Source of the DNA: Oribacterium sp. WCC10
GTDB taxonomy: Bacteria; Bacillota; Clostridia; Lachnospirales; Lachnospiraceae
Direction of reading: 5' to 3'
DNA length: 64,000 bases
Assembly: GCF_900113415.1 (NCBI RefSeq)
Contig: NZ_FOPH01000004.1
Span: 1 to 64,000, forward strand
Under the pieces are notes generated by a model. That model made no database searches. It worked only from the letters and a program-made list of their open reading frames with translations, and was not told where the DNA came from. Shown one piece after another: positions 36,404 through 57,497 of this stretch (its first letter is position 1; each line of letters begins with the position of its first letter). A program made the position numbers and the translations under genes.

Positions 36404-36417
36404 GAACATCCTTGTCC
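36404..36417 (-). promoter_or_regulatory. Putative CsrA-binding hairpin, flagellin copy 1 leader
   Basis: The RNA reads GGACAAGGAUGUUC: a 5-bp stem with loop AGGA. It contains ACAAGGAUGU, a full match to the core of the known CsrA consensus. It lies 27 nt before the ATG; a second GGA is in the ribosome site. Confidence 0.7.
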
Positions 36418-36477
36418 AAACCTATGCACATACCTGCAATTGAGCTTTTTTTATGGTATTTTTTGTTTCTATATATT

Positions 36478-36504
36478 TACTCGGCAATAATCCGAACTAT
36501 ATAA
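36478..36504 (-). promoter_or_regulatory. Sigma-28 promoter, flagellin copy 1
   Basis: On the minus strand TTAT (36501-36504), 15 nt, GCCGAGTA (36478-36485). It lies directly behind the stop of flagellin copy 2, with no strong terminator between, so copy 2 may also read into copy 1. Confidence 0.65.
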
Positions 36505-36522
36505 GCATATTTTTTAAAAAAT

Positions 36523-37380
36523 TTATCCCTGTAACAGTGACAATACTGCCTGAGGCTGCTGATTGGCCTGTGCAAGCATAGACTGTGCTGCCTGATTAAG
36601 TATATTGTTCTTGGTATAAGCTGAAATCTCCTTAGCCATATCAGTATCACGGATACGTGACTCAGCAGATGTTGTATTTTCATTGTTAACCTTAAGGTTA
36701 TTGATGGTATGCTCGAGTCTGTTCTGCTTGGCACCAAGCTGTGCTCTGTACGAAGAAACCTGATTTACCGCTTTCTTAATTGCATCTATAGCAGAGTTGG
36801 CTGCCGATACCGTCATGACGCTTATTGCGGAAATTCTAAGGTTGGAATTACCAAGTGCAGATACCTGCATGGTAGATCCTCTGAGTTTAAGTATCTCTCC
36901 GGATGTGGTACCAATTTGGAACTGCTTGGTGTTTCGATGAGTCAGAATCTTTATACCATTATATTCTGTTGAAGATGCGATACGATCAATCTCACTCTTA
37001 AGCTCATCGATTTCCGCCTGAATATTCAATCTTGCTGTGGTATCTCCATTACCATCATTATCAGCCGCTGTAGCATATGTACCGTTTGCAGCCTGTGTAG
37101 CAAGTGTTGTCATTCTCTCAAGCATCTGATGTGTTTCTGTAAGTGCTCCTTCAGCTGTCTGGATAAGACCTATAGCATCATTGGCATTGTCTTCTGCCTG
37201 ATTGAGAGCGTTGATCTTGTTTCTCATGGATTCAGAAATAGCAAGACCGGCTGCGTCGTCTCCTGCTCTGTTGATCTTAAATCCTGATGAAAGCTTCTCC
37301 AGATTCTTGTTTAGATTACCGGTGTTTTGTGACAGATTTCTGTAAGAATCGATTGCAGCGATGTTATGCTGTATAACCAT
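36523..37380 (-). CDS. Flagellin (short), copy 2
   Basis: A 285-residue flagellin with the same D0/D1 layout as its neighbours but more diverged, mainly in the middle (ATAADNDGNGDTTARLNI) and at the very end (QPQAVLSLLQG). It may be a minor or basal filament subunit, which is inference. It has its own sigma-28 promoter (37483-37509) and GGA-loop hairpin (37410-37423). AAGGAGG precedes the ATG. No clear terminator follows; only a weak T6A6 palindrome near 36508-36522. Confidence 0.97.
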   Translation of the reverse strand: MVIQHNIAAIDSYRNLSQNTGNLNKNLEKLSSGFKINRAGDDAAGLAISESMRNKINALNQAEDNANDAIGLIQTAEGALTETHQMLERMTTLATQAANGTYATAADNDGNGDTTARLNIQAEIDELKSEIDRIASSTEYNGIKILTHRNTKQFQIGTTSGEILKLRGSTMQVSALGNSNLRISAISVMTVSAANSAIDAIKKAVNQVSSYRAQLGAKQNRLEHTINNLKVNNENTTSAESRIRDTDMAKEISAYTKNNILNQAAQSMLAQANQQPQAVLSLLQG

Positions 37381-37409
37381 AAAATAACCTCCTTTGTTTC
37401 GGTTTAGCA

Positions 37410-37423
37410 GAACATCCCTGTCC
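37410..37423 (-). promoter_or_regulatory. Putative CsrA-binding hairpin, flagellin copy 2 leader
   Basis: The RNA reads GGACAGGGAUGUUC: a 5-bp stem with loop GGGA, containing ACAGGGAUGU. It lies 29 nt before the ATG. Confidence 0.7.
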
Positions 37424-37482
37424 CAATATTTAATCCTTTAAAAATTTTACCGTTTATTATAAACTTCGTTCCTTCCATTATT

Positions 37483-37509
37483 TTTTCGACCAAATCAATC
37501 TGAATATAA
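37483..37509 (-). promoter_or_regulatory. Sigma-28 promoter, flagellin copy 2
   Basis: On the minus strand TTAT (37506-37509), 15 nt, GTCGAAAA (37483-37490). The -10 is the weakest of the three flagellin promoters. Confidence 0.55.
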
Positions 37510-37657
37510 GTATTTTCACCTTCAGGAAAAGGAAAAATAATACCACCACAAAAACTCAGAACTACTGACATTCCACACTAAGTACTCCATATTCTTGCAC
37601 AAGTGAAATATCCGCCCGTATAAACATGACGTAGATATAAATACTTAAGCATCAAAA

Positions 37658-37681
37658 AAGGAAGAGCCGAAGCTCTTCCTT
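37658..37681 (-). terminator. Terminator of flagellin copy 3
   Basis: A perfect 10-bp stem (37658-37667 with 37672-37681), loop CGAA, followed on the minus strand by six T. Confidence 0.85.
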
Positions 37682-37719
37682 TCCCAACAAATACAATTGA
37701 AGATAGCAATTCTCGATGC

Positions 37720-38574
37720 TTATCCAAGAAGTGACAATACACCCTGAGGTCTCTGGTTAGCCTGTGCAAGCATAGACTGTGCTGCCTGATTGAGTATATT
37801 GTTCTTTGTGTAAGCTGAGATTTCCTTAGCCATATCAGTGTCACGGATTCTTGACTCAGCAGATGTTGTGTTCTCATTGTTAACCTTAAGGTTATTGATG
37901 GTATGCTCAAGTCTGTTCTGCTTAGCTCCGAGCTGTGCTCTGTAAGTAGATACCTGATTAACCGCCTTCTTGATAGACTCGATCGCTGAATTAGCTGATG
38001 AAACTGATGATACACTGATAGCACTAATCTTAACAGTAGAATTACCAAGTGTTGATGTCTGCATGGTTGAACCACGAAGCTTCAATGTTTCGCCGGATGT
38101 TGCACCGATCTGGAACTGCTTTGTGTTCTGATTTGTAAGAATCTTGATACCGTTATACTCTGTTGAAGATGCTATACGGTCGATCTCACTCTTAAGCTCA
38201 TCAATCTCTGCCTGAATATTGTTTCTAGCTGTTGTGCCTTCTTCTCCGAATGCATCGCCGGTTGTAGCATAAGTGCCGTTTGCAGCCTGTGTTGCAAGTG
38301 TTGTCATTCTCTCAAGCATCGCATGAGTCTCTGTAAGAGCTCCTTCAGCTGTCTGGATAAGACCAATGGCGTCGTTTGCGTTAGCCTCTGCCTGATCAAG
38401 GGCATTGATCTTGTTACGCATTGCCTCGGAAATTGCAAGACCTGCTGCATCATCTCCTGCCTTGTTGATCTTGTAACCTGATGACAGCTTCTCTAAGTTC
38501 TTATTGAGAGCTGTAGTGTTGCCTGACATGTTTCTGTAAGAGTTGATTGCTGCTATGTTGTGCTGTATAACCAT
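37720..38574 (-). CDS. Flagellin (short), copy 3
   Basis: A 284-residue flagellin almost identical to copy 1. The few differences cluster near residues 100-105 and 150-185 (for example ILTNQN against LLTNTN, and TVKISAIS against SLKISSIS). The last third is nearly identical even at DNA level, which suggests gene conversion. It carries its own sigma-28 promoter (38675-38701), leader hairpin (38602-38615), AGGAGG site and terminator, so it is a complete single-gene unit. Confidence 0.97.
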   Translation of the reverse strand: MVIQHNIAAINSYRNMSGNTTALNKNLEKLSSGYKINKAGDDAAGLAISEAMRNKINALDQAEANANDAIGLIQTAEGALTETHAMLERMTTLATQAANGTYATTGDAFGEEGTTARNNIQAEIDELKSEIDRIASSTEYNGIKILTNQNTKQFQIGATSGETLKLRGSTMQTSTLGNSTVKISAISVSSVSSANSAIESIKKAVNQVSTYRAQLGAKQNRLEHTINNLKVNNENTTSAESRIRDTDMAKEISAYTKNNILNQAAQSMLAQANQRPQGVLSLLG

Positions 38575-38601
38575 AAATTCCTCCTATTTCGGCCCGTGTA
38601 A

Positions 38602-38615
38602 GAACTTCCCTGTCC
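38602..38615 (-). promoter_or_regulatory. Putative CsrA-binding hairpin, flagellin copy 3 leader
   Basis: The RNA reads GGACAGGGAAGUUC. GGAC pairs with GUUC (one G-U pair), and the loop holds AGGGAA. It lies 27 nt before the ATG. Confidence 0.65.
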
Positions 38616-38674
38616 AAACCGGTACTCAGTGATACTGAGCGCCAAGCCTTTTATTATGATTTGTTTCACTTATA

Positions 38675-38701
38675 TTATCGCACGTATTCTAAAAAATATA
38701 A
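38675..38701 (-). promoter_or_regulatory. Sigma-28 promoter, flagellin copy 3
   Basis: On the minus strand TTAT (38698-38701), 15 nt, TGCGATAA (38675-38682). Confidence 0.6.
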
Positions 38702-38849
38702 ATAGTTTTCATAATAAAATATATTTTTATTGTAACGCAAAATCTGCTTCGACATTATACGCATAATTTCCAATCTAAAACATCAATATTCTTGAAAATT
38801 CACGCCCAATACCTAAGCCTGTATGTAGTGCAAAATAAAAACTATTTCC

Positions 38850-40400
38850 TTATTTCATTTTCTTCTTTGGTTTTGCTCCCTTTCTTATCTCACCAAACAT
38901 TCTAAACGGTGATTCTTTCGTAAGTGTTTCCTTGATGATATTTTCTATTGATACCCTATAGCTTTGATCGCTTAAAGCCGGAATCTCTGGCAGAATCTCG
39001 ATCTGTCCCTCTGCCTCAAGACCGATATCCTTGTACTTCAGAACCACATCCCTGACATACCTGTATGAAGCATTGGCAGAGCGGCTTTCATTTTCTATCA
39101 AAACATCATTCATTTCCGATATAAATCTGGTTCTGATAGTTGTGTCAGACGCCTGCTTTTCCAGCTGCCTCATATTGGCTTTTGACGCATCATGTCCGGC
39201 GCGTCCGTACCCGAGATCTATCCAGCGGTACTGATCTATCAGAATCTTTGCGGATGAGTCAAACCCATAGTAAATGATCTGATCATCTCCGATCTCCACC
39301 AGAAGCCCTGACATTGCATCCGGTATCAGATTCATGATAAGGTTCGGATCATTAAAAGGAACCTTCAAAAGCATCATCTGGCCTTCTGTATAGTAGACAT
39401 TTATCACCGCATTCAGAAACTCATTGATCTTCTGATCATCATATCTGAATCTCGCTTCTGAGATAGCGAGATCAAGGAGAACCTTGTTCTTTACCTCATC
39501 AGACATATCTCTCTTTCTTGCTATCTCCTCTATGCCTTTTGCATGCCTTAGGAACTGCGCATCAAGCATCTCTTCTCGCACATTCATCATGTGATTGATC
39601 ATAAATGCTACCTTTTGAACGACACTGGACACAGAATCATTTCGGATGGATACCGCGTGCATGGGCTTTTCTCCTGCAAGTCCTATACCTATGATTACCG
39701 CCTCAGGAGAAAGTTTTATATTGTTAAGTATGATTTCATCATTCCAGTACACCGCATGGTGATAGTTCTCACTCAGATCATAGAAATGAATATTTGAGAA
39801 CTTTCCGAAGTCATTCTTAAGCATTTGGGCAGCTTCAACATTATAGATATTATTGGCCGCCGTATAGATATCCACTCTCTTGTTCTGCTGCATATCACTG
39901 ATGAAGTCAGCCATAACATCATCTTTCTTATGCTGGTTTATGGCTTCTTCAAGCCGATCCAGATCTATCTCGATTGATGGACGGTTTCTGATATATGCAA
40001 CAAGCTCATATTCATTAACAGGTACGGTTATTCCCTCAGCACCGTTTCGTCTTGCTCTCTGAATATCCTGAACGAGCGTATTCATCATTGCAGACATCTC
40101 TCTTTGATCCGTCGGATTGTCAGCAACATCGCATACAGCTATAACAGTTCTTTTTTCATTAGCATCTGTTGCCTCAACAAGCAATTGCTTTTTTCTATCA
40201 TCTTTCCGGATGTGTATTCTGTCCTCCGGCTGAAGCTCCAGGATCTCTTCACCGGATATATCATAAAGTGACAATACCTGGTTATTATAGGAAAATCTTG
40301 CCACTTCCTCTTCTTTACTGCTTCCGTTAATGATCTTGGTAAACATACTCAATGGATGATCATCAGAAAACTGATCTAAAATGTCATTGAATTTGCCCAT
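38850..40400 (-). CDS. Unknown cytoplasmic protein of the late-flagellar operon
   Basis: A 516-residue soluble protein of no family I recognise. It is mixed alpha/beta with no signal peptide or membrane helix. A segment VLSLYDISGEEILELQPEDRIHI near the start looks like a small beta domain. The middle (residues 130-330) is helical, and the C-terminus is basic (GAKPKKKMK). It is the last gene of the leftward operon that starts at 47439, 20 bases after the transferase at 40421. A flagellum-linked role is suggested only by this position. Confidence 0.6.
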   Translation of the reverse strand: MGKFNDILDQFSDDHPLSMFTKIINGSSKEEEVARFSYNNQVLSLYDISGEEILELQPEDRIHIRKDDRKKQLLVEATDANEKRTVIAVCDVADNPTDQREMSAMMNTLVQDIQRARRNGAEGITVPVNEYELVAYIRNRPSIEIDLDRLEEAINQHKKDDVMADFISDMQQNKRVDIYTAANNIYNVEAAQMLKNDFGKFSNIHFYDLSENYHHAVYWNDEIILNNIKLSPEAVIIGIGLAGEKPMHAVSIRNDSVSSVVQKVAFMINHMMNVREEMLDAQFLRHAKGIEEIARKRDMSDEVKNKVLLDLAISEARFRYDDQKINEFLNAVINVYYTEGQMMLLKVPFNDPNLIMNLIPDAMSGLLVEIGDDQIIYYGFDSSAKILIDQYRWIDLGYGRAGHDASKANMRQLEKQASDTTIRTRFISEMNDVLIENESRSANASYRYVRDVVLKYKDIGLEAEGQIEILPEIPALSDQSYRVSIENIIKETLTKESPFRMFGEIRKGAKPKKKMK

Positions 40401-40420
40401 ATATTCATCCCCTCATCTTC

Positions 40421-41539
40421 TCATAGAGACTTTAGTCTCTCCACAGCTTTACTATACCCCTCATCTGCAGCCATTTGATAATATTCTCGTGCCTTTTCGA
40501 TATTACCGGAAACCTCATACCATGTTCCCAGATTGTATGCCGCCTTAAATGATCCCGTACCTATCACTCCTTCGGGACGGCTTATCTCCCCTAAGCTTAA
40601 ACATTTAAGATAACTTTTCTCTATATATGGAAGAAGCTCCTGATTTTTTTTCGTATCTATAAGTATCAGCTTCATGTAGAAAAGTCCGGAAAAGAAATAA
40701 AAATCAGGATTTCTTGTGAAATCATACTGGACCTTCCCCATGACATCATGTGCTTCCTCCATGCTTTTTTCCGTACCAATATCATATAAAGTATACAGAT
40801 ACCTCATGATGCCATCTGACCAGTACTGTTCCTGTCTTATCTCCTTCTTGCCTGAATTACGAAAAAAGACCCTGAAGTAAGGAAGACTCTCTTCTTTTCT
40901 GTCAAGATTTCTGAGCGTCAATGCCATCTGGTAGTTATAGTACGGATAATCAGGATCCTGTTTCAGCGCTTCCTCAAGATACTGAAGATTACGTTCTCCT
41001 TTACCATGCTGCATATATCCGTCATGAAGAGCATATAGAGGCGACCGCTTATTAACCACCTTTGCATTAACCTGCTCATGTATACTTCCCCTATAGCGCA
41101 TACCAACAGGCAGAATACGTGCAATCTCGGTAATGCTTCTGTCTATCTCATCACCATTCGGATATGAATCCTCTCTAAGTATGGTTCCAAGCCATCTGAG
41201 TCCCGACTTGTCATACATATGGTCGATAAAGTCCCTGAGAGCCTTTGGATTACATTTTTCATCCTCTATAAGGTATTCATCAGCATCTAGTACCAGATTG
41301 ATATCAGCGTTCCAATCTCTTTCCGAATGTCCTAATGCAAAATTTCTGGCTTCTGAAAAATCATTCACCCATGGAAAGTCATATACTTTGGCATCAAATT
41401 TTTTGGCAATTTCCGGAGTCTTATCTGTTGATCCGCTGTCTGCTATGATGATGTTGTCAACAAAAGGACGAGCTGCAGTAAGGCACCTTTCCAGACACCT
41501 CTCTTCATTTTTAACTATCATTACCAGATTGACGATCAT
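40421..41539 (-). CDS. GT2 glycosyltransferase with TPR-like tail
   Basis: A 372-residue fourth member of the GT2-TPR group, more distant from the tandem trio. Seen are MIVKNEERCLERCL, IIADSGSTDKTPEIA and LVLDADEYLI in the catalytic domain, then TPR-like helices ending in AREYYQMAADEGYSKAVERL, a Sel1-like pattern. It starts 4 nt after the PilZ gene, inside the late-flagellar operon rather than in the island. Its position suggests it acts on a flagellar component. Confidence 0.85.
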   Translation of the reverse strand: MIVNLVMIVKNEERCLERCLTAARPFVDNIIIADSGSTDKTPEIAKKFDAKVYDFPWVNDFSEARNFALGHSERDWNADINLVLDADEYLIEDEKCNPKALRDFIDHMYDKSGLRWLGTILREDSYPNGDEIDRSITEIARILPVGMRYRGSIHEQVNAKVVNKRSPLYALHDGYMQHGKGERNLQYLEEALKQDPDYPYYNYQMALTLRNLDRKEESLPYFRVFFRNSGKKEIRQEQYWSDGIMRYLYTLYDIGTEKSMEEAHDVMGKVQYDFTRNPDFYFFSGLFYMKLILIDTKKNQELLPYIEKSYLKCLSLGEISRPEGVIGTGSFKAAYNLGTWYEVSGNIEKAREYYQMAADEGYSKAVERLKSL

Positions 41540-41543
41540 ACCC

Positions 41544-42176
41544 TTACCTACCCCCGTTATTTCTCAAACGCTGTTCACGTAATTCTCTGAAAACATAACC
41601 TCTGATAGCTGTCTCCGCTCCCTCTGTAAGATTCATAAACTGAAGTCCGTAACCGTTGGCACCGGAGTTTTCAAGCTTCCCCCACAGAACCTTTAATCTG
41701 AAAGGTCTCTCGGTATTCTTGAAAGTATAATGAAAAGTAAGCTCCTCACCTATGGTCAGGGACTCGGATGTCACCATGTAGATACCGCCGGCACTTAGAT
41801 TGATTATGGTTCCGAAAAATGGTCTTCTGTCTGCTGTTTCGGATGTAAACTGAACAGAAAGTGAAACATTGACTCTTATATCCTGCTGTCTCTGAACGAT
41901 CTCGATAACATCCTTTATCTCACATTCTCCCAGCCAGAACTCAGGCATAATGGGGAACCCGGGATTTTCATGAATCATAATATCGCATCTCGCTCTTATC
42001 AGTCCCTTTACACTGTCGTTAAAAGAAACTTCAGCGTTTTTCATCCACATATCCTTAAGGCCATTATCCTCCTTAAAGTACAGCGCCACATTGTTGTCCA
42101 GCCCTGTAACCACACGCACACGATATTCATCATTTTCAAACTTCACTATTCCATTATTGCAATCCTTAAGTATCAT
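41544..42176 (-). CDS. PilZ domain protein (YcgR/YpfA-like)
   Basis: A 210-residue soluble protein with an N-terminal YcgR-like beta domain (residues 1-95) and a C-terminal PilZ domain. The c-di-GMP contacts appear as RQQDIR and INLSAGGIY (the N-x-S-x-x-G motif). The arginine motif is RxxxxR rather than the usual RRxxxR, so binding strength is uncertain. Proteins of this type slow flagellar rotation or adjust motility when c-di-GMP is high. It lies 85 nt after the transglycosylase gene, in the late-flagellar operon. Confidence 0.8.
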   Translation of the reverse strand: MILKDCNNGIVKFENDEYRVRVVTGLDNNVALYFKEDNGLKDMWMKNAEVSFNDSVKGLIRARCDIMIHENPGFPIMPEFWLGECEIKDVIEIVQRQQDIRVNVSLSVQFTSETADRRPFFGTIINLSAGGIYMVTSESLTIGEELTFHYTFKNTERPFRLKVLWGKLENSGANGYGLQFMNLTEGAETAIRGYVFRELREQRLRNNGGR

Positions 42177-42261
42177 TTATAACCTCTGTAATTATTTCTT
42201 TTATGTCATTATCTCACATATCAATACAAACAGGCTATAAAATTAACCTGATAAATAATCG

Positions 42262-43080
42262 TTAATCAAAATCGCCGATACTGCTCGTTGTATTCATAAG
42301 CATCTGAAGCCTGAGTATCTCGATAAGACTTGCAAACATATCCTTATCTATCCTGTCGGAATTATCACTGTCAGAACTTAATTTTTCTGCAAGTATGGTT
42401 CCAAGTCCAAGCATTCCACTACCATAGGATGAGCCTCCAAGCCCAAGTGTGCCAAGAAGTGAACTAAGCTCACTTACAGGGCTTCCTTCTTCAATAAGGT
42501 TCTTGACCGTACTTACACTGTCACCTATTACAGAACTTATATCTATACTGCTGTTTTTTTCCAGATCACCCATTATATTCTTTACATAGTTCTGTGTCTC
42601 TTCGTACGGAGGAACGCCGCCATATTTTCTGACAGCTCCTGAACCGGCATTGTATGCAGCAAGGGCAAGTTTCAGATCACCGCCGAACTCTTTCAGATTC
42701 GACGCAAGAAGCTTTGCCCCTCCCATGATATTCTGTTCAGGATCAAAGGGATCGGTAACACCAAGACTTTTCGCCGTCGCCGGCATCAACTGCATGATAC
42801 CCATCGCACCTGCTTTTGAAACAGCTGTTGTTTTGAAATCCGACTCATACTTGGCAACTGTCTTCAGTATGTTTTCTGAAATCCCATAAGTTCTTGCTGC
42901 CTTTTGGAATATGGCTTCAAGACCGGAGGCCGTTGTGTTTGTGACGGTACTTGTACCCGCAGCCTTAACTCCTTCCAGAACATTTTTAAAAGTCTTTGCA
43001 TTTTGTGAGAGAACCACTGCATTGGCAGCTCTCCCCTTTCCTGTGTTGGTCATCTCAGTTATCGACTCTATAAGCGGCAT
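42262..43080 (-). CDS. Lytic transglycosylase (SLT) of the flagellar operon
   Basis: A 272-residue protein. Residues 55-175 form a soluble-lytic-transglycosylase domain with catalytic Glu79 (KTVAKYESDFK), GAMGIMQLMPATAKSLG and LALAAYNAGSGAV. No classical signal peptide is visible at the N-terminus, so export by the flagellar type III route, as for FlgJ-type enzymes, is plausible. The enzyme cleaves peptidoglycan glycan strands, probably to let the rod or hook pass. It is flanked by wall-repeat protein and PilZ genes. Confidence 0.85.
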   Translation of the reverse strand: MPLIESITEMTNTGKGRAANAVVLSQNAKTFKNVLEGVKAAGTSTVTNTTASGLEAIFQKAARTYGISENILKTVAKYESDFKTTAVSKAGAMGIMQLMPATAKSLGVTDPFDPEQNIMGGAKLLASNLKEFGGDLKLALAAYNAGSGAVRKYGGVPPYEETQNYVKNIMGDLEKNSSIDISSVIGDSVSTVKNLIEEGSPVSELSSLLGTLGLGGSSYGSGMLGLGTILAEKLSSDSDNSDRIDKDMFASLIEILRLQMLMNTTSSIGDFD

Positions 43081-43098
43081 ATCTATCCCCCTCTACTG

Positions 43099-44280: not shown

Positions 44281-44293
44281 CACAAGACCTCAC

Positions 44294-47647: not shown

Positions 47648-47705
47648 TATGTTTAAATCAAAACAAATAGCACAATTTTTTAATGAAATTATTTTTAAAT
47701 AGGAG

Positions 47706-47732: not shown

Positions 47733-47787
47733 TATAAGCAGATGGAACTCATTGATTTAATTGTGCGTTTATGCAAGGAGGCATTTT

Positions 47788-48105: not shown

Positions 48106-48124
48106 TCTCAAAAAAGGAGATATT

Positions 48125-48556
48125 ATGTCAGACTCTGCAGTATTTAAATCTTTCACTGAAGTACTTAAATCTCAGGTAACTGTAGTCAGGAAACTCATCA
48201 AACTGGAACGTGACTTTTCCGTCATTGCTTCTGATGATGAACCAAAAAAGCTGGATAGTTTGGTAAAAGAAGCTCAACCTGATCTTTTGAATTTCAGGGG
48301 CTTAGAAAAAAAACGTGTCCGATTGGCCACTGAACTGGGATGGAAAGGTCTCAAATTCTCTGAGATTCTCTCTCAGGTATCTGATGAAGAGAAAGCTGTG
48401 CTTGCTCCTGTTTTTGAGGAACTGAAAGAGTCCCTCAACAGTCTTAAGGAGGCTCAGGAAACAGCAGATCGCATTATGAAGTTAAGGCTTTTGGATGTCC
48501 AGACTGTACTGGCAAGTCATCCTGTCCCGAAGATTTTTCAGGATACATTGGCATGA
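48125..48556 (+). CDS. flgN: FlgN-like export chaperone
   Basis: A 143-residue helical protein with the FlgN layout: long amphipathic helices and no membrane part. It sits 19 nt after flgM and before flgK-flgL, the proteins FlgN normally escorts to the export gate. AAAAAGGAG precedes ATG 48125. Direct sequence conservation in this family is low, so the call rests on length, helicity and position. The unit ends at a strong terminator. Confidence 0.8.
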   Translation: MSDSAVFKSFTEVLKSQVTVVRKLIKLERDFSVIASDDEPKKLDSLVKEAQPDLLNFRGLEKKRVRLATELGWKGLKFSEILSQVSDEEKAVLAPVFEELKESLNSLKEAQETADRIMKLRLLDVQTVLASHPVPKIFQDTLA

Positions 48557-48587
48557 TTTTACCCTTTTAAAGAACCATTGTCTCTTA

Positions 48588-48625
48588 AGCGGTTGTACAT
48601 AGCATTGTACAACCGCTATTTTTTT
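48588..48625 (+). terminator. Terminator of flgM-flgN
   Basis: A perfect 12-bp stem (48588-48599 with 48606-48617) followed by seven T. Confidence 0.9.
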
Positions 48626-48645
48626 ATATATTTTCCCCGATTAAC

Positions 48646-48672
48646 TAATGTTTTATGAAAATATGACGATAA
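48646..48672 (+). promoter_or_regulatory. Sigma-28 promoter of flgK
   Basis: TAAT (48646-48649), 15 nt, GACGATAA (48665-48672). It lies just below the flgMN terminator. Confidence 0.65.
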
Positions 48673-48729
48673 ATAGGTAGAGAAATGTGATTATTATACC
48701 TGGTTTTTCTTTTATATAGGAGGTAACTT

Positions 48730-50655: not shown

Positions 50656-50670
50656 TAGAAAGGAGTACAT

Positions 50671-51867
50671 ATGCGAGTTACCTCTTCGTCTTTTTATAAA
50701 GACTACGCACAATCCGTTCAGGACCAGAAATACAAGTACAACAAGAGTATGGAACAGGTTCAGACCGGAAGAAAATATGATACAGCTGCTGAGAGTCCCC
50801 TTGACTACTATGCAGGTAAAAAGATAGACAATCTGTACAATGATGCTGTCACAAAGGACACAATGATAAAGGATGTCATGAACCGAATGGAACAGCAGGA
50901 AGCAGCATCACGAACTCTCTATTCACAGATGGGTGACCTTAATATCAAGTACGAGCAGATGGCATCCGCATCTTTCCAGGGTCTTGAAAGTACAGTCGAC
51001 ACCATGCATACCTATATGCTTAACGCACAGCAGACCATGACTCAGGATCTCAATACCACATATGAGAACTACTATGTCATGGGTGGAAACGATGGTACAA
51101 CTGTTCCTTTCACCATGTCTGATGATGGTTATACTTTGACTTACCACCACAAGTTTGCCGGTGACGATGCTGAGACCACTATGAATTTGAAGTATAATCC
51201 CACAAACAAAGTATTTGAATATAGTGGTACAGATAAAAACGGACAGCCCATGGATGAAGATGCAACTCTCAAAAAGATTGTAACAGCCATGAGAGAACAG
51301 GGGCGAATGTCTCTCGGTTACGGTGATATCACTAATGTAAGAACTCTGCCTGATACATATTATGGGGGCTTAAATATGATAACCGGTGTCACTTCCGATC
51401 AGCTTCGTGATCAGGATACCGAAACTCTCAGTCCAAACCTTGATGCAAACATTGCTACTTTTAGGGAAGCCATGAACAAATCAGGTTTCGCCCTCAATGC
51501 CCGGGCGATAGCCGCAACAGATAAATACACAAAATCATTTTCAGACGGTTCAACAGAGGATCAACGGGCAGCTGTATGTGAAGAAATGAACGCAGATCTT
51601 GCACATATTCTCCAGAATTGGGACAGTGCAATGAATAGCGTCAGCAACACTTTCCGTCGTATCGGAGTTGCAACTGCCACTCTCGAAGATGTTCAGTACA
51701 GACTGCAGACTGCTCAGGACAGTTATATCGAGGAGTATAACGATCATATGGCCATCGATACCTATGATGCCATCGTAAAGATGTATCAGAACCAGTTCTC
51801 CTACAATGCCGCCATGCAGGTAGGCTCCAAGATCATGCAGAATTCCTTGTTTGATTTTGTTCATTAA
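50671..51867 (+). CDS. flgL: Hook-filament junction protein FlgL (HAP3)
   Basis: A 398-residue flagellin-like junction protein. The N-terminus (MRVTSSSFYKDYAQ to VQTGRKYDTAAESPLDYYAGKKI) and the C-terminal coiled-coil part (ATLEDVQYRLQTAQDSYIEEYN) match FlgL. It is about 100 residues longer than common forms because of an inserted middle domain near residues 130-240. AAAGGAG precedes the ATG. Co-transcription with flgK is likely. Confidence 0.93.
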   Translation: MRVTSSSFYKDYAQSVQDQKYKYNKSMEQVQTGRKYDTAAESPLDYYAGKKIDNLYNDAVTKDTMIKDVMNRMEQQEAASRTLYSQMGDLNIKYEQMASASFQGLESTVDTMHTYMLNAQQTMTQDLNTTYENYYVMGGNDGTTVPFTMSDDGYTLTYHHKFAGDDAETTMNLKYNPTNKVFEYSGTDKNGQPMDEDATLKKIVTAMREQGRMSLGYGDITNVRTLPDTYYGGLNMITGVTSDQLRDQDTETLSPNLDANIATFREAMNKSGFALNARAIAATDKYTKSFSDGSTEDQRAAVCEEMNADLAHILQNWDSAMNSVSNTFRRIGVATATLEDVQYRLQTAQDSYIEEYNDHMAIDTYDAIVKMYQNQFSYNAAMQVGSKIMQNSLFDFVH

Positions 51868-51879
51868 ACCAATAATTTT

Positions 51880-51908
51880 TTTAAAGTAATAGCAATATTT
51901 AATATAAT
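51880..51908 (+). promoter_or_regulatory. Candidate vegetative promoter of fliW-csrA
   Basis: TTTAAA (51880-51885), 17 nt, TATAAT (51903-51908). The -10 is perfect and the -35 weak. It would let fliW-csrA be made apart from flgKL. Confidence 0.5.
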
Positions 51909-51936
51909 AAGATATACTTAATGGAGGTTGTCATTC

Positions 51937-52413
51937 ATGTTGACATTAGAAACAAGAGACTATGGCACAATTGAGTATGAAGAGTCTGATATTATTCATT
52001 TCACTGACGGACTCTTCGGTTTCAGCGAGTTAAAGGATTATATTCCACTGGTTTTGGATGAGAACGAGGACAATACTATCCTTCTTCTCCAATCTTTGGC
52101 GAACACAGACATCGCATTTGTGGTTGTTAATCCGTTTTCACTGGATCCTGATTACAATCCGGTTCTTAGTCAGGAGGAGTTGTCATATCTCTTTGTGAAA
52201 TCAGAAGATGATCTTTCATATTATGTTGTTTGTGTTCTCAGAAACAATTATCTTGAGAACACTGTCAATATGAAAGCACCGATTGTTATTAATCCTGATA
52301 AGCGTATCGGCATGCAGGTCATTCTTAACGATTCTGAGTATGAGTTCAGAAAAAAGTTAAGTTCGTTCTCTACCGTTCAGGAGGGACTTCTTAAAACCGG
52401 GTCCGACGCATGA
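51937..52413 (+). CDS. fliW: Flagellar assembly factor FliW
   Basis: A 158-residue protein that binds both CsrA and free flagellin. Family landmarks are TRDYGTIEYEESDIIHFTDG and GLFGFSELKDYIPLVLDE near the start, VVNPFSLDPDY in the middle and MKAPIVINPDKRIGMQV near the end. ATG 51937 has TGGAGG nine bases upstream; TTG 51928 abuts that site and is not likely. In the known mechanism flagellin competes for FliW and so frees CsrA to block flagellin translation. It lies directly before csrA. Confidence 0.93.
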   Translation: MLTLETRDYGTIEYEESDIIHFTDGLFGFSELKDYIPLVLDENEDNTILLLQSLANTDIAFVVVNPFSLDPDYNPVLSQEELSYLFVKSEDDLSYYVVCVLRNNYLENTVNMKAPIVINPDKRIGMQVILNDSEYEFRKKLSSFSTVQEGLLKTGSDA

Positions 52414-52415
52414 TC

Positions 52416-52430
52416 TTCGGCACAGCCGAA
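52416..52430 (+). other. Small hairpin between fliW and csrA
   Basis: TTCGGC-ACA-GCCGAA followed by A rather than T. It lies 26 nt before the csrA start; it may affect translation but is no terminator. Confidence 0.4.
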
Positions 52431-52456
52431 AAAAAAGTATAGGGTAGGTGATAAGG

Positions 52457-52762
52457 ATGCTGATCTTAAGGAGAAAGAAAAACGAAAGTATACTTATAGG
52501 AGATAATATCAGAATTACTGTTGTTGAGAGCGCTTCCGACGGTGTTAGACTTGCCATTGATGCTCCAAAACAGATTTCCATTCTAAGAGAAGAACTTTCC
52601 ATAGCTGAACAGGAGAACAAGATAGCTACATCACCTAATCCGGATGCCATCACAGGACTTCAGGATTCTTTAAAACATATCACATTAAAGAAAAACAAGC
52701 CTGTAGTACAGAGTGAAGAAACCTCTGCCGATGAAGCTAAAGGAAACGATAAACAGTCTTGA
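52457..52762 (+). CDS. csrA: Carbon storage regulator CsrA (translational repressor)
   Basis: A 101-residue RNA-binding protein. The core MLILRRKKNESILIGDNI with RLAIDAPKQISILREEL contains the RNA-contacting Leu4, Arg6 and Arg44. A charged tail of about 40 residues extends beyond the usual 60-75-residue form. CsrA dimers bind GGA in hairpin loops near ribosome sites and repress translation. Matching hairpins are in the flagellin and fliD leaders of this window. ATG 52457 is preferred over GTG 52448 because it gives the canonical N-terminus and has AGGTGA upstream. Confidence 0.95.
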   Translation: MLILRRKKNESILIGDNIRITVVESASDGVRLAIDAPKQISILREELSIAEQENKIATSPNPDAITGLQDSLKHITLKKNKPVVQSEETSADEAKGNDKQS

Positions 52763-52789
52763 TCATTATGAATATCATATAGAATTTAA

Positions 52790-52818
52790 GCCGCCGATAT
52801 ACATCGGCGGCCTTTTTT
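52790..52818 (+). terminator. Terminator of fliW-csrA
   Basis: A perfect 9-bp GC-rich stem (52790-52798 with 52803-52811) followed by C and six T. Confidence 0.9.
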
Positions 52819-52894
52819 ACATTTTCACATTCAAAAATCGGTGTACTATTTTCTGTCTCCCATAATCCTGTTTACAGACACCAAACAGCTCCTG

Positions 52895-54787
52895 TTATTG
52901 CTCTTCCTGTTCAACTTCTTCAATGGTTGGGAAATGCCACTTCTGAACACCCACTGAATTGTGATTCTCATCCTGAGCCACAACTATCTCCGGTTCTCTT
53001 GGTCTCTTTACCGTAGTTCCGTCCTCTGAAGGTGTACCCTCTCCTTCTCTTGTGAAGCTATATTCAAGTTTGCCGGAATCCGTGTACTGAGGAGTTATGG
53101 TAACCTTATCTGATGTACGGTTTTTGTCATTGGACAAAAGATTATTAAACAGAGATACGTCCATACCCAAAAGAGAATTGCCCTGAAACTCTTCAAAATC
53201 ATTCTTTTCTCTTTCAGTTTGACTTTCTCTTGCATCGCTGCTCTTCGCCGGCTCCGCTTCTCCGGAAGTTGTTTCCTTAGGAACTTCTCCCAGCTTAGGG
53301 AACTCCCAGAGTCCTATCTCTGTCTCAGCATTCTCATCGACAAGGAAATCCTCCTCGGTGACATTCTCTCCTGCACTTTCCTTTATCTCCTTTTCAAGCA
53401 TAGACTTCTGCTGTTCGTCCGCAAGTACTGAATCGAATATCTTGCCGGCCTTGCTTCCATCCTCTTTGGATACCGCAACGCCACTCATGGCACCATTCTC
53501 AAGGGCTCTTGTTGTCCTGGTCTCCTTAGGAAGATAGGATATATTGCCCTTGCTCTTAACCTCTGAGGATGCACTGCTTCGCTCTTTAGACTCGCTCTGA
53601 ACACCGCCTCCAAATTGAACTCTCAGGGTCTCCTTTATCATCCTTATGCATCTCAAGAACCAGAAAACAGGCAGGAGTATCGGGAACTTCTGAAGTGTAG
53701 GATACAAAGAACTCATATATTTGTATTCCGGGAATACCCAGAGTATCTGCTGCTTAACACCGTCCCAGAACTCACCTCTTTGCTGTCTTCTAAGTTCCTT
53801 TTCCTCTTCACGCTTTTCCTTATCGATATGCTTCTGGATATCATTTCTAAGAGTATTGGCCTGAGGAACCATCTCTGTTCCTATAACACCACTGCTAAGT
53901 ATCCTGCTCTCTACGCTGTCATATACAGCCCCATCCTCTATGGCAAGATCCAATATATCATCCGCCTTGGATCCGAACCACATGGCTGCAATATGTATCA
54001 TACATTGCGCAAGAATGTCTATCTTAAACTCTTTGAATCGGGTCCAGATAAAATTCTGATTCATCTTCCCTTTGAACTGATGGTAAAAAAGAAAAACATC
54101 AAGAAGCTTTCGTACAGTAAGAGAATTTTCACAATAGTTATAGCAGATCTCCGCCATACGGAATACGAAGCTTGATTCAAGAGAAAAGGTGTGCATGGAA
54201 TTGAAAGTTCTGTCTATATAGGCCCTTTCCATCAAGGACGTCATACACTTCTGATAGTTCCTGGTAATGAACGGAAGCTTATAGTATATCTCAACCATAA
54301 ATCCGTTACCGGCTCTCATATGCTCTCCGAACTTTGGATAAAAATGGTCTGTAAGATATCCAAGATCCACCAGAAAGCCCTTGGCAAGACTGTAATCCTT
54401 CTCACTGAGAAGCAGTCTCAACGGGCTGTTACTGGCACTTTCCGGTATCCTGTACAGGCGTCTCGTGGCTGATGACTCAAGAACCGTTGCAGATATCTTA
54501 TGCATATTAAGAAGTGTCAATATCTCGAGCTCTGAGTTCTCGTAGCTTGATGAATACATAAGGCTTTCCTGATAACGTTCAAAAAACCTCTCGCCCCACT
54601 TTTGAGGCACATGCTCTGAAGCACCAAGCATACCAAGATAGATGATATTGGCTATCTTATGATAGTCGGCAAGATGAAAAAGTCTTTCCCAGTCCATCTT
54701 CATGGATCGCTTCGGAATCTCCTTTTGCCTGATCACCGCCCCCGCAAGATTGATCAGGTACCTGCCTTCAAATATTGTTCGATTCAT
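52895..54787 (-). CDS. NTP_transf_5-like protein with long acidic tail
   Basis: A 630-residue protein. Residues 15-300 resemble the uncharacterised nucleotidyltransferase family PF14907 in layout (helical start, then a strand-helix part near KISATVLESSATRRLYR and LRLLLSEKDYSLAKGFLVDLGY). The lysine-glycine and D-x-D positions typical of active members are not evident. A hydrophobic stretch lies near residues 365-385, followed by a Glu/Ser-rich low-complexity tail to the end. ATG 54787 is chosen, although GGGGG lies rather far (12-14 nt) upstream. It stands between csrA and the fliDST operon, separated by terminators. The function is unknown. Confidence 0.5.
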   Translation of the reverse strand: MNRTIFEGRYLINLAGAVIRQKEIPKRSMKMDWERLFHLADYHKIANIIYLGMLGASEHVPQKWGERFFERYQESLMYSSSYENSELEILTLLNMHKISATVLESSATRRLYRIPESASNSPLRLLLSEKDYSLAKGFLVDLGYLTDHFYPKFGEHMRAGNGFMVEIYYKLPFITRNYQKCMTSLMERAYIDRTFNSMHTFSLESSFVFRMAEICYNYCENSLTVRKLLDVFLFYHQFKGKMNQNFIWTRFKEFKIDILAQCMIHIAAMWFGSKADDILDLAIEDGAVYDSVESRILSSGVIGTEMVPQANTLRNDIQKHIDKEKREEEKELRRQQRGEFWDGVKQQILWVFPEYKYMSSLYPTLQKFPILLPVFWFLRCIRMIKETLRVQFGGGVQSESKERSSASSEVKSKGNISYLPKETRTTRALENGAMSGVAVSKEDGSKAGKIFDSVLADEQQKSMLEKEIKESAGENVTEEDFLVDENAETEIGLWEFPKLGEVPKETTSGEAEPAKSSDARESQTEREKNDFEEFQGNSLLGMDVSLFNNLLSNDKNRTSDKVTITPQYTDSGKLEYSFTREGEGTPSEDGTTVKRPREPEIVVAQDENHNSVGVQKWHFPTIEEVEQEEQ

Positions 54788-54866
54788 GTTGCTGCTCTTC
54801 CCCCCGCAAATCCGTTCTTCCGGATTTCCCAAGTTCTATACAATGTTATGGTCTAATTTTAACATA

Positions 54867-54899
54867 AAAGAACCACAGAGAAAATCTCCGTGATTCTTT
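54867..54899 (-). terminator. Terminator of the fliD-fliS-fliT operon
   Basis: A 14-nt stem with two mismatches (54867-54880 with 54886-54899). Sited 52 nt past the last gene of the operon. Confidence 0.75.
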
Positions 54900-54951
54900 A
54901 AACACATATAAAAACTAATAATTTTTACGTTCTTTTATAAGCATCAGTTAC

Positions 54952-55353
54952 TTATTCCCTATAATATGATTTATCCTGAGCAAGCTGTATATTTAAGCGC
55001 CGATCCTGCATTTGAAGCTCTTTTATCAAAGATCGAGTCTTCAGTCTTATATCTTTCACAAGCTTTTCATCTTCAGTTTCCGGTACGATTTCCTCCGGAT
55101 CTGTAAATATAAGTCTGTGTGCAATCAGCGCTGCCTTAGGTCCGGCTTCACCCAAAAGTTCTATGGTTTCCGTTGTGTGTTGAACCTTTTTGATGGCATC
55201 CATTCGTTCATCAAGAAGAATCTCTGCTGTATATCCATCATTTCCGGACAGAACCTGAGACAGCTCGTCTGTCAGATTCTTTACATCTTTTATATACGTA
55301 TATTTACGCTGATACAGAATCGCAAGATTTTCGACATCTAAAATATCTTCCAT
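54952..55353 (-). CDS. FliT-like chaperone candidate
   Basis: A 133-residue, fully helical and highly charged protein directly downstream of fliS, the place usual for fliT. Size and helicity fit a type III export chaperone, which in other bacteria escorts FliD. Sequence similarity to known FliT is not obvious by eye, so no symbol is given. ATG 55353 has GGAG six bases upstream; ATG 55359 touches the site and is less likely. Confidence 0.6.
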   Translation of the reverse strand: MEDILDVENLAILYQRKYTYIKDVKNLTDELSQVLSGNDGYTAEILLDERMDAIKKVQHTTETIELLGEAGPKAALIAHRLIFTDPEEIVPETEDEKLVKDIRLKTRSLIKELQMQDRRLNIQLAQDKSYYRE

Positions 55354-55368
55354 ACTCATCTCCGAATA

Positions 55369-55770
55369 TCAACCTACAACACTGGCCTGTCTTGCTTCAT
55401 GTGTATCCTGAACCAGATGACTGGCCCCTTCAAATCCATCACGAAGATCCTCTATGATCTCTACAAGCTTTGGAATCTCTCCCTTTAAACTCTTACCCGA
55501 AGCCTTTACCTTTGAAAGATCATATATGATGTAATCATACAGTCTTCTCAGATCTCTGCTTATAGGAATCGACATATCCAGAGTGTTTATAAGATATCTT
55601 ATGATCTTAACTGTTTTTGCTATATAATCTTCAAAAGCAGTTATATCTCCATCTTCCAGAGCCATGTCAGCTTTTCTAAGATCCTTCATGCACTCATCAT
55701 ACAGAAGGATCAAAAGCTCAACAGGGGACATGGAGAAAATAGTATCTTCTTTATATTTACCATAAGTCAT
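55369..55770 (-). CDS. fliS: Flagellin export chaperone FliS
   Basis: A 133-residue helical chaperone. Family features are SPVELLILLYDECMKDLRKA near the start, the IRYLINTLDMS helix and LYDYIIYDLSKV. It binds the flagellin C-terminus to stop early polymerisation. ATG 55770 follows AAGG by eight bases; GTG 55779 has no proper site. It lies 71 nt after fliD and 15 nt before the FliT-like gene. Confidence 0.93.
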   Translation of the reverse strand: MTYGKYKEDTIFSMSPVELLILLYDECMKDLRKADMALEDGDITAFEDYIAKTVKIIRYLINTLDMSIPISRDLRRLYDYIIYDLSKVKASGKSLKGEIPKLVEIIEDLRDGFEGASHLVQDTHEARQASVVG

Positions 55771-55841
55771 GAACGGCACCTTCTTTTCAAATCATGTACA
55801 GAAACTAATCATTTACTACATATGGTATATCGGCAAAAAAC

Positions 55842-57455
55842 TTAATATGATAAGCTTGAAAGATAGCTTGACTGAGAGTTCATGCTGTTTATAAGAGTCT
55901 CAAGATTTGAGAACTGTTTAATGTATCTGTCCTGTTCTGTCTTGAGCTTACTCTTCCACTTTTCCAGTTCCTCCTTGTAGTCTTTTGTCTTTTTGTATAT
56001 TTCATTGTTATTCTTTGTGGCAGAAAGCTTTGTTGAACCGGCCACTTCAACAAGACGACCGTAGGAGTTACCGTTTCTTGATGCATATCTTGTTGCATAA
56101 GGAGTCAACTGCTTATTGATAGTAGCACCAAATCCGGTCTTCTCCTCCGTTCCACACATGATTTCTTCAACCTTGGTTGAATCTGTTTCCATAGCCTTAC
56201 GGAATTTATCTTCATCAAATGAAAGCTGTCCGCCATCTGCATGATCCGAACTCATAGTGATGCCTATGCTCTCAAGATCACTGTAACTTATGCCTCCTCT
56301 GATGATATCATTCATCATTCCGTGAAGTTCATATGAAAAATTTCTAATCTCGCTATCGTTATAAAGTATTCCTTCTTTCGCCTTTTTATTCCACTTTTCA
56401 ATTTCCTTTTCGGTCATCTCATCTTCCTGTTCTTCAGTCAGAGGATCATAACCGCTGGAAGGTCTGGTGGTCACATGAGTATTAACCTCTTCGACAAGTT
56501 TATTGTAGGCTTCTATAAACTCTTTTACACGCTCTGTCGCCTTATCAACATTGGCAGAAGCTGTAAAGGTTACGCTTGCACCGGCATCATAAGATACTGT
56601 TCCATCCGCTACAGATATATCACCAAATGTTCCGCTAGCGGTAACCTTGAGACCGTCTACATTAAATGTATTGTTGTGGCTGGTTATGGCTACAGGCTCA
56701 GAACCACCGTAACTTACATACATTACAGCATCTTTTCCGGCTGTAAACTGTGATTCATCCTCGCCAAACAGTGCTTTGGCCGCACCGTTAAGTTTAACTT
56801 CGCTTTCTTCTCCGGTCTCCTTATCGAAGAACATAAACTTACCGGTACTTTCAACATAAGTTGCCTTTACACCTGCATCACTATTGTTAATGGCACTTAC
56901 AAGATTACTGATTGTTGATTCACCTGTTACTTCAAAAGATTTACCATTGATAGTCATATCAGTGATATTTCTATCTGAAAAACCAAGATCGCTGAGTTTT
57001 GAAGATTTGGTAGCAGTCTCCCCTGTAGAACTGTCAGTCATCTTTGTAGATGTAAAATATGCTGATGATGCAAGCTGACTGACACCCTTCACGGAAATAT
57101 AATCAAGAAGATTGGAGTTGCCGGTCGCAGAAATAAGTGATGTTGATGAACTGTTTCCTTTGGCAGTGACGTCAGACTTGGCATATAACGAGTTATTGAC
57201 TATACTTGTTTTTCCGGAGTAGCTCAGGTAGTCATCTTCCATATCTATCATCTTATCGGTGATACTGTTGTATGCTTCCTGTCTCCACTCCTGCCTGGTA
57301 ATATTCTGATTTGTTTTCGTTATCTTACTGTTGGTAGTTGATGTCAACTGTTCTATCAAAGCATCTCGGTCAAGTCCGGATGCAAGTCCTCCGAAACCTT
57401 TCAAGGAGGTATTTCCTAATGCGCTCGTTGAGCTGCTGCTGTCTGATACTTTCAT
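55842..57455 (-). CDS. fliD: Filament cap protein FliD (HAP2)
   Basis: A 537-residue cap protein. The N-terminal domain has GLASGLDRDALIEQLTSTTNSKI, and the C-terminal FliD domain has the coiled-coil end KEELEKWKSKLKTEQDRY, QFSNLETLINSMNSQSSYL. It forms the pentameric cap under which flagellin folds. AAGGAG precedes the ATG. The gene has a sigma-28 promoter (57522-57548) and, like the flagellins, a GGA-loop hairpin in its leader (57484-57497). It heads fliD-fliS-fliT. Confidence 0.95.
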   Translation of the reverse strand: MKVSDSSSSTSALGNTSLKGFGGLASGLDRDALIEQLTSTTNSKITKTNQNITRQEWRQEAYNSITDKMIDMEDDYLSYSGKTSIVNNSLYAKSDVTAKGNSSSTSLISATGNSNLLDYISVKGVSQLASSAYFTSTKMTDSSTGETATKSSKLSDLGFSDRNITDMTINGKSFEVTGESTISNLVSAINNSDAGVKATYVESTGKFMFFDKETGEESEVKLNGAAKALFGEDESQFTAGKDAVMYVSYGGSEPVAITSHNNTFNVDGLKVTASGTFGDISVADGTVSYDAGASVTFTASANVDKATERVKEFIEAYNKLVEEVNTHVTTRPSSGYDPLTEEQEDEMTEKEIEKWNKKAKEGILYNDSEIRNFSYELHGMMNDIIRGGISYSDLESIGITMSSDHADGGQLSFDEDKFRKAMETDSTKVEEIMCGTEEKTGFGATINKQLTPYATRYASRNGNSYGRLVEVAGSTKLSATKNNNEIYKKTKDYKEELEKWKSKLKTEQDRYIKQFSNLETLINSMNSQSSYLSSLSY

Positions 57456-57483
57456 ATTAATGCTCCTTCATAATAAAAACGAA

Positions 57484-57497
57484 GACCTTCCCTGGCC
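57484..57497 (-). promoter_or_regulatory. Putative CsrA-binding hairpin, fliD leader
   Basis: The RNA reads GGCCAGGGAAGGUC: GGCC pairs with GGUC around loop AGGGAA. Compared with flagellin copy 3 (GGACAGGGAAGUUC), a stem pair changes on both sides while the loop is kept. It lies 28 nt before the ATG. Confidence 0.65.

Follow-up and report, generated by a model that had tools for sequence, protein, structure and literature searches.

Known flagellar CsrA targets and the Oribacterium locus

In Bacillus subtilis, the leader of the flagellin gene hag has CsrA sites at A51-A55 and C75-G82 (available part of PMC8523840), and CsrA occludes the Shine-Dalgarno sequence, an effect that FliW relieves (available part of PMC6529632). 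In C. difficile fliC, CsrA sites were predicted at TGACAAGGATGT and at the Shine-Dalgarno sequence (PMC8523840, same part). In C. jejuni, CsrA binds the leader of flaG, whose locus tag directly precedes fliD, and represses through it; the flaG 5'UTR was enriched 346-fold, and FlaG was down approximately threefold without fliW (available part of PMC4894983). According to the same text, the FlaG level was unchanged by csrA deletion alone and changed only when fliW was lost (PMC4894983).

The window analyzed here is a 64,000-nt stretch of DNA from Oribacterium sp. WCC10 (Table 1). A preliminary description had reported four 14-mers with GGA-loop hairpins upstream of the flagellin genes and fliD, and had read them as a CsrA regulon. 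All four were confirmed in the window sequence, in position and on the minus strand, and the spacing between hairpin end and start codon was 27, 29, 27 and 28 nt (flagellins 1-3 and fliD), as claimed. The fliW and csrA genes, placed at 51937-52762, were both recovered by profile.

The arrangement resembled that of B. subtilis hag, in which approximately 24 nt separate a first site from a second one at the Shine-Dalgarno sequence, with fliW beside csrA and flagellin as the target (PMC8523840 and PMC6529632, in the parts available). Unlike in B. subtilis, the predicted CsrA element of Oribacterium is on several flagellin genes and on fliD. The likeness to C. difficile fliC was also close, as ACAAGGATGT is common to the predicted site TGACAAGGATGT and flagellin 1 and the second site again falls in the Shine-Dalgarno sequence; however, C. 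difficile has one flagellin gene, and no fliD site is mentioned in the available part of PMC8523840. With the flaA and flaG leaders of C. jejuni, the Oribacterium leaders shared ANGGA in hairpin loops, the second over the ribosome site, and compensatory changes. There, in contrast, flaG leads the cap region and the enrichment of fliD (6.8-fold) was confined to the coding sequence, with no value given for its 5'UTR, whereas Oribacterium fliD has its own leader (available part of PMC4894983).

Table 1. Flagellar genes, leader hairpins (loop in brackets) and associated signals in the window.
Feature	Coordinates	Strand	Details
Flagellin 1 gene	35525..36376	-	PF00669 2.4e-37
Flagellin 1 Shine-Dalgarno GGAG	36383..36386	-	25 nt from loop GGA
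Flagellin 1 leader hairpin GGAC[AAGGAU]GUUC	36404..36417	-	loop GGA 36409-36411; covariance model E 6.8e-12; closing-pair probability 0.88
Flagellin 2 gene	36523..37380	-	PF00669 9.4e-37
Flagellin 2 Shine-Dalgarno GGAG	37389..37392	-	25 nt from loop GGA
Flagellin 2 leader hairpin GGAC[AGGGAU]GUUC	37410..37423	-	loop GGA 37415-37417; covariance model E 3.4e-11; closing-pair probability 0.96
Flagellin 3 gene	37720..38574	-	PF00669 1.1e-36
Flagellin 3 Shine-Dalgarno GGAG	38581..38584	-	25 nt from loop GGA
Flagellin 3 leader hairpin GGAC[AGGGAA]GUUC	38602..38615	-	loop GGA 38607-38609; covariance model E 2.8e-14; closing-pair probability 0.97
fliW	51937..52413	+	PF02623 5.2e-36; FliW structure 5dmb 3.7e-24
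csrA	52457..52762	+	PF02599 1e-20; sole CsrA match in genome
fliS, flagellin chaperone gene	55369..55779	-	PF02561 7.8e-24; adjoins fliD downstream, same strand
fliD, filament cap gene	55842..57455	-	PF07195 2e-36, PF02465 1.2e-7
fliD Shine-Dalgarno GGAG	57463..57466	-	25 nt from loop GGA
fliD leader hairpin GGCC[AGGGAA]GGUC	57484..57497	-	loop GGA 57489-57491; covariance model E 1.9e-13; closing-pair probability 0.97
Further GGA near predicted 5' end of fliD mRNA	57511..57513	-	22 nt before loop GGA
Predicted sigma-28 type -10 of fliD, CGATAA	57522..57527	-	consensus MCGATAa, as quoted in PMC3720852

A two-part element in the leaders

Each leader contained an element of two parts, a hairpin with the loop ANGGAN and a Shine-Dalgarno GGA 23-26 nt downstream. 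The pattern GGMCARGGAWGKTC, which covers all four hairpins, occurred six times in the 3.64 Mb genome, four times at the leader sites and twice inside long ORFs, and its reversed control gave 0 occurrences; this control and shuffles of the leaders ruled out a chance origin of the hairpins. When a covariance model was scored at every window position, the four hairpins reached E values of 3.4e-11 or better, followed by a next match at E 0.18. Because these hairpins were among the model's 21 training rows, the scan served as a test of specificity, not of discovery. A known Rfam element was rejected for the eight loci searched, which gave only two unrelated matches, far below the gathering score, so that no existing covariance model fits.

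Five flagellin matches were found in the genome and the hairpin preceded four of them, including the fourth, a flagellinolysin whose leader hairpin has a GAAC/GTTC stem. The leader of the fifth, a 627-aa flagellin, had no hairpin when read by eye. The earlier statement that all flagellin leaders share the element therefore applied within the window but not genome-wide.

Both fliW and csrA were intact. In the alignment CsrA keeps L4 and R44, which we take to be the RNA-contact residues. The parts of a FliW-CsrA checkpoint were present, namely FliW in the genome and, in CsrA, an Asn that by our own count aligns with N55, the residue needed for FliW binding (available part of PMC7829508). The 13 Oribacterium genomes with FliW were the same 13 in which FliD_N was above the cut-off.

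Conservation within Oribacterium

Over 17 Oribacterium genomes, with up to 150 first-pass candidates per genome scored (up to 30 per genome in another search), the covariance model gave 26 matches at E<=2.4e-5, of which 18 preceded flagellin genes and 8 preceded fliD. The training rows accounted for 21 of these matches, and the remaining five were all flagellin leaders. The next match, at E 4.4e-4, lay upstream of a lipoprotein-like gene. Reading of 13 weaker matches (E 4.4e-4 to 0.04) led to the rejection of a wide regulon of exactly this form in the genus, a result that covers elements of this form and that differently shaped CsrA sites would escape. The matches were before other genes with a different hairpin or none, in apparent coding sequence, or mainly to the Shine-Dalgarno half.

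The GGA loop was conserved in related genomes: the loop ANGGAN was present in all 21 aligned Oribacterium leaders, and CANGGANG and a distance of 23-26 nt from loop GGA to Shine-Dalgarno GGA were likewise kept in 21/21. Stem cells were paired in 92.4% of cases vs 83.0% after shuffling, and the covariation score was above all 500 shuffles. Two of five covariation measures were not above the shuffles (pairs changed on both sides, with 494/500 shuffles as high, and further pair types, with 491/500), because changes on both sides occur in only one of the five pairs and close kin supply seven of the eight fliD leaders. The suggestion that the stem covaries in fliD while the loop is kept was upheld for one pair, fully compensated (A-U to C-G) relative to the flagellins, but further covariation needs other genera. 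A DNA operator in place of an RNA element was rejected, as paired positions of the stem vary together around an unchanged loop. The flagellin hairpin of genome G178 lies far upstream and was predicted not to fold (probability 0.06). A script assigned the start codons in relatives, with some errors (L112; that of G212 fliD is doubtful).

The hairpin on fliD

What is new relative to the known flagellin switch is the same element on the cap gene fliD. The hairpin was present in 8 and absent in 4 of the 13 Oribacterium fliD leaders, and its stems were GGCC/GGUC, GGCC/GGCC and GGAC/GUCC. The novelty that the preliminary description saw in fliD control holds for this hairpin, but the repression by C. 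jejuni CsrA through the flaG leader is a precedent. In the midpoint-rooted Oribacterium tree, which has three long branches, a branch with 100/100 support set the carriers, together with G212, apart from the four leaders' genomes without the hairpin. Putative CsrA control of fliD thus draws its support from conservation in a single Oribacterium clade.

Restriction to one clade, with seven of the eight leaders from close kin, would also fit a chance or functionless relic. The eighth leader, from the distant G213, differs by a compensated stem pair with loop and spacing unchanged, and the reversed pattern is absent from the genome; both argue against a relic, which we regard as barely credible. 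The further GGA upstream of the fliD hairpin was found at 21-24 nt in all eight hairpin-bearing Oribacterium fliD leaders.

The fliD hairpin could instead bind CsrA mainly as a decoy or act on mRNA stability, with FliD translation hardly altered, in the way that the C. jejuni flaA leader titrates CsrA (available part of PMC4894983) and B. subtilis CsrA also limits the hag transcript level (available part of PMC6529632). However, the loop GGA of fliD lies 24-25 nt from the Shine-Dalgarno GGA, as tight as on the flagellins, a spacing that a pure decoy does not need, and fliD transcripts are expected to be much less abundant than those of flagellin, making this explanation unlikely. By analogy with the titrating flaA leader, the abundant flagellin leaders could share the CsrA pool with a weaker target.

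The layout also bears on the direction of control. CsrA is stated to stabilize E. coli flhDC mRNA (available part of PMC4894983), and it might by such mRNA protection activate fliD yet repress flagellin; the second GGA in the Shine-Dalgarno sequence, at the flagellin spacing, is a repression layout, and activation is accordingly a very improbable outcome. We give equally little credence to another RNA-binding factor, or FliW directly, reading the hairpin with CsrA as a minor ligand, as the conserved parts, loop ANGGAN and Shine-Dalgarno GGA, are those of a known CsrA site.

A CsrA site is by far the best reading because of the loop, the covariation, the spacing, the genus restriction to flagellin genes and fliD, the neighboring fliW and csrA with their binding residues, and the likeness to C. 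difficile. The regulon proposed earlier is supported by the loop ANGGAN, the covarying stem, the fixed spacing and a sequence almost identical to the site predicted for C. difficile fliC. We place the probability of a two-part CsrA target with FliW relief, extended to fliD in one Oribacterium clade, at roughly 0.78.

Proposed mechanism

Judged from the leader sequences, the hairpin very probably lets CsrA switch off translation of the four flagellar genes. One subunit of a CsrA dimer would bind the loop GGA and the other the Shine-Dalgarno GGA 23-26 nt downstream, and a dimer on both GGAs would therefore keep the ribosome off. FliW, encoded beside csrA, would bind CsrA and free the mRNAs, and cytoplasmic flagellin awaiting export would sequester FliW, bringing repression back. 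In one Oribacterium clade, this flagellin-sensing checkpoint would also act on fliD and probably on fliS behind it, which is presumably co-transcribed, and synthesis of the cap, the chaperone and the filament subunits would then coincide and be limited to times of flagellar export. The behavior of C. jejuni FlaG implies that an effect on fliD could hide under ordinary growth. If this is true, the protein-based CsrA switch that is best understood among those of Gram-positives extends from flagellin to the cap gene, and it becomes testable whether the cap is supplied in step with the filament subunits.

The element in the wider Lachnospiraceae

In other Lachnospiraceae, the hairpin was found in 54 of 90 flagellin leaders (shuffled mean 2.4), among the matches listed. 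The 90 comprised the first-listed match of each of 76 genomes (76/109 genomes with flagellins), 41 of which had it, and 14 leaders hand-picked near fliD, 13 of which had it, again among the matches listed. Alignment across the family took the best-pairing ANGGAN at a fitting distance in each leader, which 55 of the 90 had; with the slight bias toward pairing that this choice brings, 260 of 275 stem cells were paired vs a mean of 154 and a maximum of 181 in 2000 right-arm permutations. Among the matches listed, all 47 hairpins at a suitable distance had A as the first loop base, although the search accepted any base there, and loop GGA and Shine-Dalgarno sequence were mostly 20-31 nt apart. This family-wide hairpin set is a starting point for seeking CsrA targets among Lachnospiraceae of the gut and rumen.

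A family-wide fliD element was rejected, as 9 of 102 fliD leaders (101 genomes) matched, which is chance level (shuffled mean 4.4, maximum 11). The hairpin did precede a second family of short FliD_C-like proteins, in 13 of 30 leaders (from 30/77 genomes), the founding leader having been found by the covariance model itself. This undescribed family is flagged as a likely flagellar component. On balance, we favor with moderate confidence a Lachnospiraceae checkpoint that reaches FliD-type proteins: fliD (with fliS) in one Oribacterium clade via three GGAs approximately 22 and 25 nt apart, and in other genera the short FliD_C-like family, which would be produced alongside flagellin as a late flagellar component. 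In that case, cap-type proteins would be rationed with filament subunits, through a link gained at least two times, with a parallel in Campylobacter flaG.

The flaG leader was considered as a candidate counterpart of the fliD element across the family. An ORF of 126-158 aa ended 10-46 nt before fliD at 18 of the 29 loci with enough upstream sequence, and the four of these 18 that were profile-scanned were all FlaG (PF03646). The strict hairpin preceded 1 of the 18 ORFs. With relaxed loops of 6-9 nt, the leaders in this flaG position had a hairpin in 5/18 cases when four pairs were required (shuffled mean 1.2, maximum 5) and in 4/18 when five were required (shuffled mean 0.5, maximum 3).

Identification of a GGA-Loop Element before Flagellin Genes and fliD

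The four 14-nt hairpins of the preliminary description had, on re-reading, the sequences claimed for them, and their claimed spacing to the start codon was borne out; fliW and csrA were both present where it had placed them. The hairpins preceded three flagellin genes and fliD. Across the genome (53 contigs, 3.64 Mb in total), a pattern covering all four sites had six occurrences and the reversed pattern, used as a control, had none; the two further sites fell inside ORFs whose products resembled, on reading, glutamine synthetase and an ABC-transporter ATPase. Five flagellin matches were found in the genome. The fourth was a flagellinolysin (NF033876; it scored 233.2 bits, above the cut-off of 205), a flagellin with an HExxH protease insert encoded outside the window (locus L007, 151-1914, minus), and its leader contained a hairpin with the stem GAAC/GTTC that was missed by the first pattern. 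The leader of the fifth flagellin, of 627 residues, showed no hairpin on reading. The claim that all flagellin leaders share the hairpin thus held for the three flagellins of the window but not genome-wide, where it applied to four of five; with fliD, five genes in the genome carried the element. Leaders of flgM, flgN, flgK and a flgL-like gene had no such hairpin on reading, and the next-best window matches of a covariance model built from 21 aligned Oribacterium leaders (E 0.18 and 0.62) lay where flgK and flgN begin. The genes immediately downstream of the flagellins were six of glycosyltransferase type in tandem (GT2 with TPR, DUF3880 type), perhaps a flagellin glycosylation locus.

Table. 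Positions of the hairpins and associated genes in the window
Feature	Position	Strand	Remark
Hairpin, flagellin 1	36404-36417	minus	27 nt before start codon
Hairpin, flagellin 2	37410-37423	minus	29 nt before start codon
Hairpin, flagellin 3	38602-38615	minus	27 nt before start codon
Hairpin, fliD	57484-57497	minus	28 nt before start codon
Third conserved GGA of fliD	57511-57513	minus	near predicted mRNA 5' end; conserved in 8/8 hairpin-bearing Oribacterium fliD leaders
fliS		minus	next gene after fliD, same strand
fliW	51937-52413	plus	
csrA	52457-52762	plus	
ComFB-domain gene	57632-58372	minus	upstream neighbour of fliD
Glycosyltransferase-type genes	27900-35820	minus	six in tandem

The element comprised a stem closing the six-base loop ANGGAN, together with the GGA of the Shine-Dalgarno sequence, and the two GGAs were 23-26 nt apart in all 21 aligned leaders. 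Within the genus, one stem pair was fully changed, being A-U in 14 rows and C-G in the other 7, and another occurred as G-U, A-U and G-C. The closing C-G pair had a predicted probability of 0.88, 0.96 and 0.97 for flagellins 1-3, 0.97 for fliD and 0.99 for flagellinolysin; the lowest-energy fold of flagellins 1 and 2 had an extra A-U pair inside the loop. In six flagellin 3-type leaders (alignment A4; window 38572-38690, minus), a conserved flank CCGG...GGGCCG surrounded the hairpin, and a further stem with a variable loop stood upstream of it.

Conservation in Flagellin Leaders of Lachnospiraceae

Flagellins were encoded in 109 of 200 Lachnospiraceae genomes, sampled at about one per genus. 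In 54 of the 90 flagellin leaders examined, a stem of four or more pairs enclosed a loop with NNGGAN (100 shuffles: mean 2.4, maximum 9), and 24 of the 36 hairpin-less leaders belonged to flagellins starting M-[RKI]-I-N, not to the -QHN type. Covariation across the family, which the preliminary description had named as a check, was evident in the 55 flagellin leaders with ANGGAN at a fitting distance from the Shine-Dalgarno sequence: 260 of 275 stem cells were paired, whereas permuting the right arms gave 154 on average and at most 181, and several pair types occurred at all five stem positions.

The in vitro consensus of CsrA is RUACARGGAUGU. CsrA of the window kept L4 and R44, two residues with a role in RNA binding. 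It also had an Asn aligned with N55, the residue on which the binding of FliW depends in both C. jejuni and B. subtilis (PMC7829508). The B. subtilis hag leader, with CsrA sites at A51-A55 and C75-G82, is stated to have this layout, and the same one is predicted for C. difficile fliC (PMC8523840). For the flagellins, the kind of element is already known and the hosts are new. CsrA of B. subtilis blocks the Shine-Dalgarno sequence until relieved by FliW, which is freed as flagellin is exported (PMC6529632). By analogy, flagellin build-up would shut down translation of flagellin and fliD together.

Distribution of the fliD Element

Of the four records with FliD relatives at 76-80% identity, three bore the name Oribacterium and one was a Lachnospiraceae bacterium. 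Genomes G202, G206 and G211, assigned to the genus of the window, matched the three Oribacterium records exactly in their leaders. FliD_N was above cut-off in 13 of 17 genomes of the genus, and FliW was found in those same 13. The element preceded fliD in eight of them (G000, G202, G203, G204, G205, G206, G211 and G213) and was absent from the fliD leaders of G178, G200, G208 and G214; G212, with a strong GGA hairpin farther upstream and unclear start codon placement, was not counted among the eight. Because a tree of FliW and part of FliD placed the nine hairpin genomes and the four without on opposite sides of a 100/100-supported branch, a single gain on fliD in Oribacterium would suffice. 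Across the 17 genomes, the model gave 26 matches at E<=2.4e-5, of which 18 lay in front of flagellin genes and 8 in front of fliD; 21 were its own training rows and the other five were flagellin leaders. The element was missing from several flagellins of the genus that were large or divergent. The hairpins of a G178 flagellin (L148) and of G212 fliD (L119) sat a long way upstream, and the additional spacer can fold into a separate stem, which might bring hairpin and Shine-Dalgarno sequence nearer.

Among 102 family fliD leaders, drawn from 101 genomes (G178 and 100 from other genera), nine matched, not above shuffles (mean 4.4, maximum 11). A short ORF ended 10-46 nt upstream of fliD in 18 of 29 family loci examined, and all four such ORFs scanned were FlaG. 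Since flaG is often close upstream in the family, while fliD of the window has its own predicted promoter and a ComFB-domain gene (PF10719, 1.1e-14) in that place, we infer from these few loci that the element is found where fliD is no longer part of the flaG operon. In all eight hairpin-bearing fliD leaders the predicted -10 was followed after 8-9 nt by another GGA, which preceded the loop GGA by 21-24 nt.

Searches of open full texts turned up no paper whose title or opening abstract lines described control of fliD by CsrA in Firmicutes. The nearest case comes from C. jejuni, where flaG, fliD and fliS, with the consecutive locus tags Cj0547-Cj0549, form one operon. According to PMC4894983, the flaG leader was enriched 346-fold with CsrA and fliD 6.8-fold, in its coding part; FlaG was down ca. 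3-fold without fliW and unchanged by csrA deletion alone.

A Short FliD_C-Like Protein Family

One family match of the model (L341, G023:C8) preceded a gene for a 229-residue protein, for which Pfam gave a weak DegS match alone (E 0.037). Its relatives, an undescribed family of ca. 225-265 aa, occurred in 77 of the 200 genomes at E<=1e-6 and were absent from G000 and G178 at that threshold. FliD_C matched 19 of 30 aligned relatives at E<=0.1 (best 1.8e-10), and their profile matched a solved flagellar hook-associated protein 2 (5fhy, 3.9e-6). A CsrA-type ANGGAN hairpin with at least three pairs, 18-36 nt before the Shine-Dalgarno sequence, was found in 13 of the 30 leaders (L341, L342-L370), with the founding G023 leader, itself found by the model, counted among the 13 (200 shuffles: mean 0.13, maximum 1); requiring four pairs left 7 of 30 (shuffled mean 0.08). 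Judged from sequence, the family may be a second FliD-type target with a putative flagellar role.
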